Shown here: positions 4,880 to 20,217 of the stretch, piece after piece
Layout: every line of letters starts with the position of its first letter
Numbering within the stretch: the first letter of the stretch is position 1
From: Microcaldota archaeon
Lineage (GTDB): Archaea; Micrarchaeota; Micrarchaeia; Micrarchaeales; Micrarchaeaceae
Direction: 5' to 3'
Assembly: GCA_027365735.1 (NCBI GenBank)
Contig: DAHXLY010000023.1
Span: 1-35,811, forward strand
DNA length: 35,811 bases
The notes under the pieces: generated by a model
Told to the model about the DNA's origin: nothing
The model's input: only the letters and a program-made list of their open reading frames with translations
Databases searched by the model: none
Made by a program: the position numbers and the translations under genes

Positions 4880-6037
4880 ATGAACAGAGCGGGAATGTGT
4901 CTGGTTTTGGTTATGGCGGTGTTGCTTGTCGGAAGCGCCAGCGCGCAGTTCTGGCAGTCCACGACTCAGTACCCGCAGCCGATAAAGCAGGAATCATGCA
5001 ATTATTACAGCGGTTACATCTACTGCCTCGGTGGAACAACAACATCCGGAACATCGCGTTCGGTTTATTCCGCGCAGGTAACATCCACTGGCGTCGGAAC
5101 CTGGACATCCGAGACTGGATATCCATCACTTATACTTAAACAGTCATGCGCAGCCGGTAGCGGCTACCTCTATTGTGTCGGAGGACAGAACGTTTACACG
5201 TCGTATTATGCCCCGATAAGCAACGGCAATGTCGGCAACTGGACGGCTACGACAAACTATCCGCTCAAGGTGTATTACCATACGTGCTCGATAAGCAATG
5301 GATACATTTACTGCGTCGGAGGTTACAACGGCTATGCGGGAGTGCAGAATGTCTACTATGCATCAGTCAACTCAACTGGAATCGGCGCATGGCAAGCCAC
5401 GAGCGGATATCCAATCCTGATTAACGGGCAGAGCTGCGCCATCAGCGGAGGATACATCTACTGCGTAGGAGGGCTGTTGCAGAACGGCAACCCGACAAAC
5501 CAGACCTACTATGCGTCGGTGTCTGGCGGCGGAGTCGGGCAGTGGTACAGTACTACCCCTTATCCAAACGCCATGGCGTTCGGAAGCTGCAACGTCGCTA
5601 ACGGACAGCTTTACTGCGTGCCGGGAAGCGGGTCCAATGTCACTTATTATGCAAGCCTTACTGGTTCGGGGATAGGAAAGTGGCAGGCCTCCCCGAGTTA
5701 TCCGGCATCCGGGACGACCGACATAAGTTGTACATCCTCGGGGTCCGCGATATACTGCATCGGAGGCAACGGCAACCCCCTGCTGCAGAGCGTGTACTAC
5801 GCTGCCGTCTCACTGAGCGGCGGTGGGAGCGGTTCCACGTCTGTTGTCTCGTCCGGAGGGGGGTACAACACCACCACCTCCGTGAATAACAACGGTGGAG
5901 GATCCAGCGGAACAGGTGGCTCAAGCAGCGGTGGGATAAGCACAACTACGGTTATACTGGTTGTGGTGATAGTAATCCTCGCAGGCGTGCTTGCGTGGAA
6001 AATGATGCTGCCCCAGATCAGGAAGCAGAAGAAGTAG
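4880..6037 (+). CDS. Secreted, C-terminally anchored Kelch-like/beta-propeller surface protein with six Cys-paired repeats
   Basis: N-terminal hydrophobic signal MCLVLVMAVLLVGSASA; six repeats of W..T..YP...SC....GYIYCVGG...YYA.VS..G.G; Gly/Ser linker; C-terminal TM STTTVILVVVIVILAGVLAW followed by basic residues. Confidence 0.85.
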   Translation: MNRAGMCLVLVMAVLLVGSASAQFWQSTTQYPQPIKQESCNYYSGYIYCLGGTTTSGTSRSVYSAQVTSTGVGTWTSETGYPSLILKQSCAAGSGYLYCVGGQNVYTSYYAPISNGNVGNWTATTNYPLKVYYHTCSISNGYIYCVGGYNGYAGVQNVYYASVNSTGIGAWQATSGYPILINGQSCAISGGYIYCVGGLLQNGNPTNQTYYASVSGGGVGQWYSTTPYPNAMAFGSCNVANGQLYCVPGSGSNVTYYASLTGSGIGKWQASPSYPASGTTDISCTSSGSAIYCIGGNGNPLLQSVYYAAVSLSGGGSGSTSVVSSGGGYNTTTSVNNNGGGSSGTGGSSSGGISTTTVILVVVIVILAGVLAWKMMLPQIRKQKK

Positions 6038-10143: not shown

Positions 10144-11469
10144 ATGGCGCTCAGTGACAAGCTTATCAGGCTAGAGGACCAGATTCTCGAGAGGTTGGTT
10201 GGCAAATTCGTGGAAGTTACCGACATGGAGAAGAGGAAGACCCTTGTCTATCAGACGGCCAGGGGGCTTAGCCCGAACACGACCAACGAAGAGATAGAGC
10301 AGATACTGCAGGATGTATACGACATGGGCCCGATAGCTCCATTCGTACTGGACTCATCAAAGGTCGAGGACATAATGGTCAATAACACAGAAAATGTCTT
10401 CATCTACGAATCCGGCGTGGGTTACAGGAAGCTGCCAGACAAGTTTTCCGACAGGGACGAGCTTGATCGGTTCGTTAACAAACTGAAGTTATGGGCGACC
10501 AATCAGGCAGCGAAGGGCAATATCATGGATGTCCACATGGAATCGGGCAGCAGGGCGAACATAATCACATCCCCGCTTGGGTATGATGTCACAATCCGAA
10601 ATTTCAGGACAAAGCCAATCAGCATGATCGACCTGATAAACCTCAGGACTCTGGATTACAAAATCGCCGCCAGACTCTGGTTGTACACCGATGGCTTCAG
10701 GGTAAGGCCTGCAAACCTGCTAATCGGCGGGGTTCCAGCGGCGGGGAAGACCACACTTCTAAATGCAATGTTTTCATTCTTCAGGCCCGACCAAAGAATA
10801 GTAACGATAGAAGAAACCTACGAACTCAATTCACAATATCACGAAAATACTGTCAGGCTGGAGACCAGCGAGGACCTTACAATGGAGGATCTTGTAAAGA
10901 ACGCCCTCAGGATGAGACCTGATATGCTAATAGTCGGAGAAGTCAGGGGAGCTGAGGCCAACGATATGATATCGGCGATGAATGTCGGAAAGATATCGAT
11001 GGCGACGATCCACGCATCATCGACAAGGGACATAATCAACAGACTCGAGCATGCGCCAATGGACGTGCCGAAGGATATCATCCCTGTGATAGATGCGTTG
11101 ATGATTTCGTCCGTCGTCTTTGAGAACGGAGTGCCACACAGGAAGATTATCCAGATATCGGAAATATCCGGGATAGAAACGCAGGTTCTGCTATCGGATA
11201 TTTACAAGTTCGACTACAAGACTCACCAAGCGGCACCAATCCTGCCGAGCGTCCAGTACCGAGACCTGCTTTCAAGGCTATTGGGAATCACCCCGCCTGA
11301 CCTGCTCGCAGAGGAGGCGGTCAGGGCGAAGGTGCTCGAGCAGCTCAACAAGCTCGGCAAGCGCGATATGGCGAGCATCAGCTCTGCAGTCCAGGAGTAT
11401 TATGCGGATCCAGATGCGCTCCTGAAGAAGATTGGTTTGCCACAGCTGTCTGCAGTGATAAGAGTATGA
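10144..11469 (+). CDS. Type II/IV secretion system ATPase (VirB11/TadA/PilB-like)
   Basis: Walker A GGVPAAGKTTLLNA, Walker B DMLIVGEVRGAEANDM, His box MATIHASSTRDIINRL. Confidence 0.93.
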   Translation: MALSDKLIRLEDQILERLVGKFVEVTDMEKRKTLVYQTARGLSPNTTNEEIEQILQDVYDMGPIAPFVLDSSKVEDIMVNNTENVFIYESGVGYRKLPDKFSDRDELDRFVNKLKLWATNQAAKGNIMDVHMESGSRANIITSPLGYDVTIRNFRTKPISMIDLINLRTLDYKIAARLWLYTDGFRVRPANLLIGGVPAAGKTTLLNAMFSFFRPDQRIVTIEETYELNSQYHENTVRLETSEDLTMEDLVKNALRMRPDMLIVGEVRGAEANDMISAMNVGKISMATIHASSTRDIINRLEHAPMDVPKDIIPVIDALMISSVVFENGVPHRKIIQISEISGIETQVLLSDIYKFDYKTHQAAPILPSVQYRDLLSRLLGITPPDLLAEEAVRAKVLEQLNKLGKRDMASISSAVQEYYADPDALLKKIGLPQLSAVIRV

Positions 11470-18416: not shown

Positions 18417-18677
18417 TCACGGCTTCGGGCCTTGCGGGTTGAATGCGGGCCGGTTTGCGTCGCGGATTGCCTGTGCCTTCTTCTTCTCGAAGATTCCCCT
18501 GTGCTTTGCGCAGCTTATGCAGTACCAGATCTTCCGCCTCTCGAAGAAACGGACGTCGTTGGTGTTCTGCATCCCAGTGTTGAAGCTTATCGCCTTCTCG
18601 AACTGGACCCCTTTGTTCCTGGGGACTTTCCTTCCGCATTGGTCGCACACGACCTGGGTTTCTGATCCTCTTGACAA
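18417..18677 (-). CDS. S26e-like ribosomal protein (zinc-binding), TTG start
   Basis: VVCDQCGRKVPRNKGV ... IWYCISCAKHRGI resembles the S26e CxxCxRxVPxxKA ... YCxSCAxH signature. SD AGGTG upstream of TTG (18675-18677). Confidence 0.65.
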   Translation of the reverse strand: MSRGSETQVVCDQCGRKVPRNKGVQFEKAISFNTGMQNTNDVRFFERRKIWYCISCAKHRGIFEKKKAQAIRDANRPAFNPQGPKP

Positions 18678-18734: not shown

Positions 18735-18749
18735 GGTATTAATAGCTTT
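18735..18749 (+). promoter_or_regulatory. GGTATTAATAGCTTT, candidate core promoter element
   Basis: Identical 15-mer recurs at 20203-20217. Each copy lies about 25-35 nt upstream of the ATG of a plus-strand gene. Confidence 0.45.
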
Positions 18750-18772: not shown

Positions 18773-20179
18773 ATGACCAATCTAAGGCTCCAGAGTGCTG
18801 TGGAATACCTAACCACCTATGGGTGGGCTATAATCCTTGTTGCTGTAATACTAGCTGCACTTTATCAATTAGGATTCTTTAGTGGTACAAATTTCATAAC
18901 AACATCATGCATAGCAGAGTCCGGGTTCAACTGCCAGCAGCCGGTTATGAATATCACTGGTTATGTGGAATTTAATCTCGGCCAAATCAGTAATGGAACC
19001 ATAACTGTTACTGGAGTGGCGTGTACAAACACTACTGCAAATCCAACCTTTACCGGTGTATTCGCCAATGGTTCTTCTACCGGTCTGTTGCAGCCTGAAC
19101 AAACCTCTTCAATGGTCGTTCAGTGCCCAGGCATTGGCAGTTCCGGAAAGATCGGTTCATCATTTAGGGGCTACATATGGATTCAATATACCTCTAATGG
19201 CCAGAGCGGTCTGATTGCTCAGATTGCGGTACTTTCTGCAGTTGCAACAACCCCTTCCGCTTTTTTACCTACAGCCGGCACCATCTATTGTGTAGGGGCA
19301 ACAACTGCGCCTTATGGCCTGAGCTATTATGCAGCAATATCTGCTGGTAATGTGAAAACCTGGAAATCAACAACAAGTTTTCCAATAACGCCGGATACCG
19401 CAGGATGCTCCATCTACAACGGTGATATATTCTGTTTTGGCGACCAGGCTTCTGCGCCAAAAAATGTTGTCTACTATGCTCCGATTTCTAGCAGTGGTAT
19501 AGGCACGTGGGTATTTGCCGGGAACTTTCTGAATCCCGGTGGCAGTTGTGAGATTTTAGGTGGCTATATATATTGCGAGGGTCAGTTTGGTGCAACACCC
19601 TCTAATGTACTTTATTCTGCGCAGATTAACAACAATGAGATAGGTTCGTGGTCATACGTGGGAAATGCACCAAATATTTTCGTTAACGGCATACCTGAGG
19701 TTCCATGCACTACATATTCTGGCAGTGATGTTTATTGCCTCTCTAGTTTTTTGGGCCCGTCTTACAATGGGGCTTACTATTCACCAATAAGCTCCGGAAC
19801 TTTTGGATCATGGTCACCGATAGATCTGCCAGCGGAGGGTACTGGAATAATGAGTTTTAACATCTATGGTGGATATATCTATGTGACTGGAGTATCACAG
19901 GAATACTATGCACCAATTTCAAGCACTGGCATTGGGACATGGACGCATGAAGGGGCATATCCGCTTGATTTGCGATATTCTGGTTGTGTTACATACCAAG
20001 GTTATCTGTATTGTGTGGGTACCCAGTATGGCGATACAAAAAACATCTACACTGCACCAATTTCCGCTGCAGGAATAGGCTCATGGCAAGCACAGGCTGA
20101 CTATCCGATAGCCTTTTATGACATTGGAGGGTGTGCCGTAAGCGGTGAAACGGGCGGATTGTGGAGTACCGGGACCTAA
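18773..20179 (+). CDS. Class III signal peptide (archaeal pilin-like) protein with C-terminal Kelch-like/beta-propeller domain
   Basis: N-terminus LRLQSAVEYLTTYGWAIILVAVILAALYQLGFF; C-terminal repeats with YYAPISS.GIGTW and GC....GYIYCVG matching the 4880..6037 protein. Confidence 0.85.
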   Translation: MTNLRLQSAVEYLTTYGWAIILVAVILAALYQLGFFSGTNFITTSCIAESGFNCQQPVMNITGYVEFNLGQISNGTITVTGVACTNTTANPTFTGVFANGSSTGLLQPEQTSSMVVQCPGIGSSGKIGSSFRGYIWIQYTSNGQSGLIAQIAVLSAVATTPSAFLPTAGTIYCVGATTAPYGLSYYAAISAGNVKTWKSTTSFPITPDTAGCSIYNGDIFCFGDQASAPKNVVYYAPISSSGIGTWVFAGNFLNPGGSCEILGGYIYCEGQFGATPSNVLYSAQINNNEIGSWSYVGNAPNIFVNGIPEVPCTTYSGSDVYCLSSFLGPSYNGAYYSPISSGTFGSWSPIDLPAEGTGIMSFNIYGGYIYVTGVSQEYYAPISSTGIGTWTHEGAYPLDLRYSGCVTYQGYLYCVGTQYGDTKNIYTAPISAAGIGSWQAQADYPIAFYDIGGCAVSGETGGLWSTGT

Positions 20180-20202: not shown

Positions 20203-20217
20203 GGTATTAATAGCTTT
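20203..20217 (+). promoter_or_regulatory. GGTATTAATAGCTTT, second copy of candidate promoter element
   Basis: Exact match to 18735-18749; upstream of 20251..20883. Confidence 0.45.

Follow-up and report, generated by a model that had tools for sequence, protein, structure and literature searches.

In Streptococcus sanguinis, PilB and PilC each carry, grafted onto a pilin module, a binding module (vWA; ConA-like lectin) that is presented at the pilus tip, and the survey of such modular pilins covered bacteria, the word "archaea" never appearing in its text (PMC8179133). A related arrangement is found in an ultra-small episymbiont, Saccharibacteria TM7x (Nanosynbacter lyticus), where the minor pilin PilX2 carries a C-terminal seven-bladed propeller and is required for normal host binding, which is lowered by its deletion (PMC12206443). 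Among archaea, class III signals are known on the PibD-processed sugar-binding proteins of the Sulfolobus bindosome, GlcS and AraS; a Gly residue at position −1 is critical for FlaK acting on archaellins, whereas PibD is more flexible (PMC4187195). For Mia14, from the same phylum as the organism studied here, the available part of the published account describes Kelch/YVTN surface proteins, an expansion of LamG proteins, two pilus systems and a single FlaK-like peptidase (PMC5498576). The means by which the very small, host-dependent archaea of the DPANN group recognise and retain their hosts are still an open question. The window analysed, a stretch of 35,811 nucleotides, contains a gene whose product (P0001) we consider a rather probable modular type IV pilin-type adhesin with a Kelch head, handled by the pilus machine and binding a partner cell or matrix.

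Results

Architecture of P0001

The window corresponds to contig C17 of a Micrarchaeota source genome (G000) of 562 kb that is 53% complete, and its features are collected in Table 1. The first-pass annotation had described a class III/pilin-like start, a beta-rich spacer and six W-containing repeats in P0001, and this reading held: the N-terminus is MTNLRL-QSAVEYLTTYGWAIILVAVILAALYQLGFF, a beta-rich stem extends to about residue 160, and six W-containing repeats follow. The stem is, however, no mere spacer, since it belongs to a conserved family with invariant or nearly invariant columns and two cysteine pairs. Neither Pfam nor NCBIfam returned a family for P0001.

Table 1. Coordinates of the features discussed (window positions unless a contig is given).
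Feature	Position	Strand	Remarks
Paralogous six-blade Kelch protein (P0002)	4880..6037	+	Sec-type signal peptide; C-terminal Gly/Ser stalk, TM helix, basic tail (topology predicted from sequence)
Secretion/pilus assembly ATPase (T2SSE; FlaI/TadA-like)	10144..11469	+	Family match
Left conserved neighbour, ribosomal protein S26e-like	18417..18677	-	Adjoins the 20251 gene in relatives without the insert
15-bp direct repeat GGTATTAATAGCTTT, left copy	18735..18749	+	Upstream of the P0001 gene
P0001 coding sequence, 468 aa	18773..20179	+	Pilin-type stem, then six-bladed Kelch-type propeller
Putative class III leader MTNLRL	18773..18790	+	Predicted cut before Q7; L(-1), R(-2), E(+5)
Hydrophobic N-terminal helix, residues 6-32	18788..18868	+	AlphaFold2 models
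Stem beta-sandwich, residues 45-159	18905..19249	+	Cysteine pairs C46/C54 and C84/C118
Kelch-type propeller, six blades	19274..20152	+	Circularly permuted (strand b to strand a)
15-bp direct repeat, second copy	20203..20217	+	Downstream of the P0001 gene, upstream of the next gene
Right conserved neighbour, RpiB/LacAB-like segment	20251..20883	+	Pro/Ala-rich tail
~85-bp repeat, five copies	C27:21772-21856, C27:22824-22908, C23:4623-4706, C1:265-349, C33:5042-5123		

The putative class III-type start of P0001 reads RL/QSAVEYL (the slash marking the predicted cut), with the Glu residue at +5. The Pfam model for class III signals (PF04021) gave no score for P0001, which was counted against a pilin-adhesin reading, and the assignment therefore rests on K/R at −2, Q at +1, E at +5, the modelled helix and the pilin-like fold. 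Among 142 members of the stem family, in which Q at +1 was imposed by the search pattern, position −2 was K or R in 134, and position +5 was acidic in every case (E in 138, D in 4). Position −1 was more variable (L in 65, S in 38, A in 26 and G in 11), and the Leu found there in P0001, atypical of prepilin sites, was also held against the pilin-adhesin reading.

The stem alone was modelled by AlphaFold2 with a pLDDT of 88. Comparison of this model with the PDB using Foldseek placed the archaeal type IV pilus of Pyrobaculum calidifontis (8fk7) first, as the sole match at E<0.001, and the AAP pilus of S. acidocaldarius (8q30) third, with low TM-scores of about 0.35. These data give moderate support to the presence in the stem of an N-terminal helix followed by a beta-sandwich, as in solved archaeal pili. 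By sequence, the stem had no match among solved structures; Pfam left it unmatched, the matches obtained for 68 stems included no pilin family, and no bacterial IPR012902 pilin module was recognised in the P0001 stem. Cysteines C46 and C54 were both present in 67 of the 68 rows of the stem alignment and both missing in the other one, and the same perfect coupling was observed for C84 and C118 (both present in 58 rows, both missing in 10). A viral spike was also considered as a source of the stem, and was left unsupported by the search for viral homologues, which found none.

The Kelch propeller and its cysteines

When the whole of P0001 was modelled by AlphaFold2 from a 45-row alignment, helix 6-32 and a confident beta domain were recovered, followed by a propeller region with pLDDT values of about 60-80. 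Its best Foldseek matches in the PDB were six-bladed Kelch domains, namely the designed SAKe6, KLHL12 and Keap1 (E about 1e-8; TM-score by target about 0.7). The C-terminus is thus modelled as a Kelch propeller of six four-stranded blades arranged in a ring, and failure to model as a propeller, named beforehand as an outcome that would count against the first-pass annotation, was not what we obtained; the combination of a pilin-type N-terminus with a propeller is supported. By sequence, the P0001 propeller had no match among solved structures. The Pfam cut-offs were passed by the P0002 paralogue (Kelch_1 and Kelch_6) and by a sister stem protein, L038 (Kelch_1). The proposed match between the repeats of P0001 and those of P0002 was confirmed by BLASTP (E=7e-26, 31% identity across 282 aa). 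No ligand-binding residues were identified in P0001, a result counted against an adhesin.

Relative to P0002, the propeller of P0001 is circularly permuted, beginning at strand b (TIYCVG) and finishing at strand a (GGCAVSG), and the ring runs in this same order in L002, L003, L004 and L038. A truncated C-terminus of P0001 was rejected, given that the sister proteins likewise finish at strand a, which fits closure of the ring.

A blade profile was built and searched with the cysteines masked, yielding 179 distinct blades in which the cysteine positions of strands a and b were both aligned. Both cysteines were present in 166 of these blades and neither in 5, while 8 had only that of strand b and none only that of strand a (Fisher p about 9e-7). 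Of the eight blades with the strand-b cysteine alone, five or more resemble first blades, for which strand a is expected from the C-terminus of the protein, and in P0001 itself both cysteines are missing from the same blade (SFNIYGGYIYVTG). This presence or absence as pairs points to one disulfide joining strands a and b in each blade. Since the ring begins at strand b and finishes at strand a, a disulfide in the closing blade would then tie the two ends of the propeller together; we infer that this link probably exists in P0001, at the spot where the model is weakest.

The two paralogues were described as using different anchoring modes, and they do, with a pilin-type N-terminus in P0001 and, in P0002, a Sec signal together with a stalk and a TM helix. 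A third mode was found on contig C27 (L012), in which an N-terminal TM segment and a Ser/Thr stalk precede the Kelch repeats.

A stem shared by many heads

A search of the genome contigs with P0001 returned nothing, and the stem alignment was then used as query. Further proteins combining the putative signal with a propeller, whose search the first-pass annotation had recommended, were found in the source genome as additional stem-Kelch type genes, for instance on contigs C27 and C1. The stem profile had matches in all 60 relatives searched, at 7-39 copies each, and in 159 of 165 genomes of the phylum. Stems occur alone or joined to unrelated heads: Kelch, lactonase/NHL-type propeller, Laminin_G_3, Gly_rich_2 and others without a family. 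In near-complete genomes the ratio of headed to stand-alone stems, as judged by open-frame length, was about 27:3 (G006), 16:5 (G021) and 8:4 (G020). In the source genome, a stem on contig C26 is 63% identical to that of the window, yet it bears an unrelated head. A stem tree of 138 rows, quickly built and with many weak branches, required at least 30 changes of head type, and for Kelch heads the starred branches alone imposed at least 4 changes. On these sequence comparisons, the tree provides evidence of head exchange or of repeated gain and loss. The first-pass annotation was supported on the anatomy and the anchoring modes, and overlooked a stem common to many heads; its suggestion that the head sits on a filament and binds sugar is a possible reading.

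Several other arrangements of the family were observed. One stem-Kelch protein of contig C27 (L141:6958-7809) has only two near-identical blade equivalents, reflecting either repeats that collapsed during assembly or a short form that would depend on oligomerisation. In a single-contig relative, about ten ORFs that contain a stem and measure 292-312 aa, many of them 0.9-2 kb apart, lie in a run (G021:C1:581304-603725) that looks as if tandem-amplified. Contig C8 encodes a protein (L139:11608-12285, + strand) that begins with a winged-helix HTH and has a single TM helix; its ectodomain shows homology to the pilin stem (about 30% identity, E about 1e-10). Full-length relatives of this protein occur in G008 (L182) and G006 (L183), and its sequence predicts a regulator that is bound to the membrane and has an ectodomain of the pilin type. 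A large set of HTH-TM proteins of about 540-620 aa with other ectodomains (L185-L192) is present in relatives and possibly represents a wider class of membrane-bound regulators.

Pilus machinery in the source genome

Absence of a prepilin peptidase and of pilus platform genes had been named as evidence that would refute a pilin-borne propeller; a prepilin peptidase and a platform protein were both found in the source genome, as were two assembly ATPases. Besides the ATPase encoded in the window, a cluster on contig C12 comprises a second T2SSE ATPase along with two TadC-like halves and a class III pilin matched by PF04021. The platform protein was missed by a genome-scale search with PF00482 and recovered by scanning the C12 ORF, one TadC-like half being just over the T2SSF cut-off when its ORF was scanned singly. 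The prepilin peptidase, on contig C1 (L138:365-1237), was matched at E=1e-5, below the Pfam cut-off, while those of relatives are mostly above the family cut-off. Its GxGD motif reads GAAD, versus GFGD, GGGD or GAGD in relatives, with which it shares both catalytic Asp residues; by sequence, it had no match among solved structures. The sub-cut-off match and the GAAD motif weigh against the pilin-adhesin reading, as do the low TM-scores of the stem, the location of the P0001 gene outside any pilus operon and the 53% completeness of the genome. The peptidase gene begins about 0.2 kb downstream of the tail of a further stem-Kelch type gene.

Genomic context and flanking repeats

The P0001 gene lies between two conserved neighbours, the left one of which we take, from its sequence, to be S26e-like. 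The right neighbour was found in 23 of the 25 genomes searched, mostly adjoining the S26e-like gene. In the 17 relatives in which both were found they lie next to each other in divergent orientation, with 33-119 bp between them in 14 relatives and 310, 381 and 942 bp in the other three; the window has 1573 bp between them, including the P0001 gene. These data indicate that the gene was gained in this lineage, at a site between neighbours that are both conserved.

The gene is flanked by an exact 15-bp repeat, present in two copies versus 0.07 expected in the window. Its flank-repeat score was the second among 121 genes, at 33 versus a background of 30, and a stem-Kelch gene of contig C27 scored 111. 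Four of the five copies of a repeat of about 85 bp lie beside stem-Kelch type genes, and the two copies on C27 flank this C27 gene as direct repeats. Given the weak score in the window and the strong score and 85-bp flanks on C27, repeat-mediated gain is likely for the C27 gene and merely suggested for the P0001 gene. The idea that every stem gene is a cassette lying between repeats was rejected, since only C27 stands out and the genes on C4, C8, C22 and C29 show nothing of the kind.

Discussion

From the computed anatomy, folds, coupled cysteines, machinery genes, interchangeable heads and lineage-specific insertion, we infer cleavage, filament incorporation, adhesion and a ligand as follows. 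A FlaK-like prepilin peptidase would trim the short leader at the membrane, and the hydrophobic helix and stem would make the protein a client of a type IV pilus machine made of the T2SSE ATPase and the TadC-like platform. Outside the cell, the stem would then present a six-bladed Kelch propeller stapled by disulfides, either at the tip of a pilus built from stand-alone stem pilins or along its side, where the propeller may bind to a partner cell or to matrix by way of a protein or a glycan there.

The class III stem could instead merely anchor and order the propeller in the envelope, tethered to the membrane as in a bindosome and forming no long filament, which we regard as possible but improbable. 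The signals of GlcS and AraS provide a precedent (PMC4187195), headed copies far exceed stand-alone stems in G006, which is odd for rare tip adhesins, and the window ATPase also resembles BasE, far below the BasE cut-off. The stem nevertheless has a pilin-like beta-sandwich and a near-invariant E5, and a bindosome combines a solute-binding protein, an ABC transporter and Bas proteins, whereas P0001 bears a Kelch head and its gene has no ABC transporter beside it. It is unlikely that P0001 is a surface-layer or general envelope protein whose propellers serve as coat or spacer parts with no specific ligand: although the Kelch and YVTN propeller proteins of Mia14 were assigned to the surface layer in the available part of that account (PMC5498576), and relatives carry the same Kelch repeats in giant proteins (open frames of 1300-2800 aa), many divergent low-copy heads on one kind of pilin stem are ill-suited to a paracrystalline coat, and Foldseek relates the stem to pilins. 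Finally, Kelch oxidases and epimerases exist, but an enzymatic role for the propeller, with the pilin part as a secreted anchor, seems very improbable, as Pfam and NCBIfam gave no enzyme family match and what the propeller matched in the PDB were binding domains and designed propellers.

Returning to the pilin-type adhesin, the many heads carried by the same stem in relatives are probably for gripping or recognising other cells. A broader proposal, which we advance tentatively, is that one pilin stem with swappable heads may constitute a combinatorial host-recognition repertoire of Micrarchaeales, spread over gene cassettes that are gained and lost (some of them between direct repeats with promoter-like sequence within), and that the related stem ectodomains on membrane-bound HTH regulators could sense the state of the pilus or of contact. 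Pilin stems with different binding heads, present across the phylum, provide specific candidates for proteins of host contact, open to testing in the Micrarchaeota co-cultures that already exist.

We found no archaeal description of this stem-head family in the open-licence literature searched. Solved archaeal type IV pili (8fk7, 8q30) share the helix and beta-sandwich of the stem; they lack a C-terminal head, and their sequence similarity to the stem is undetectable. GlcS and AraS carry class III signals, as P0001 may do, and differ in being solute-binding proteins for uptake with no propellers, a shared pilin stem with swappable heads being unreported in the available part of that work (PMC4187195). 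Mia14 has the same head folds (Kelch/YVTN propellers, LamG), with LamG genes linked to pilus loci; in the portion of the account available, these are described as surface-layer or LamG proteins and a shared pilin stem is unmentioned (PMC5498576). PilB and PilC differ in having bacterial IPR012902 pilins and heads other than Kelch propellers, and P0001, as modelled, has the layout of such modular pilins, with a pilin module and a C-terminal module joined by a short linker. PilX2 is encoded by a single gene, in contrast to the large paralogous family described here, and belongs to a bacterial type IVa pilus with a seven-bladed RCC1 propeller; the stem-propeller family looks like a convergent counterpart to the propeller-tipped pili of bacterial episymbionts. 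Modular pilins were known from bacteria, and what is new is a probable archaeal form with a Kelch head that is predicted to be stapled by disulfides.
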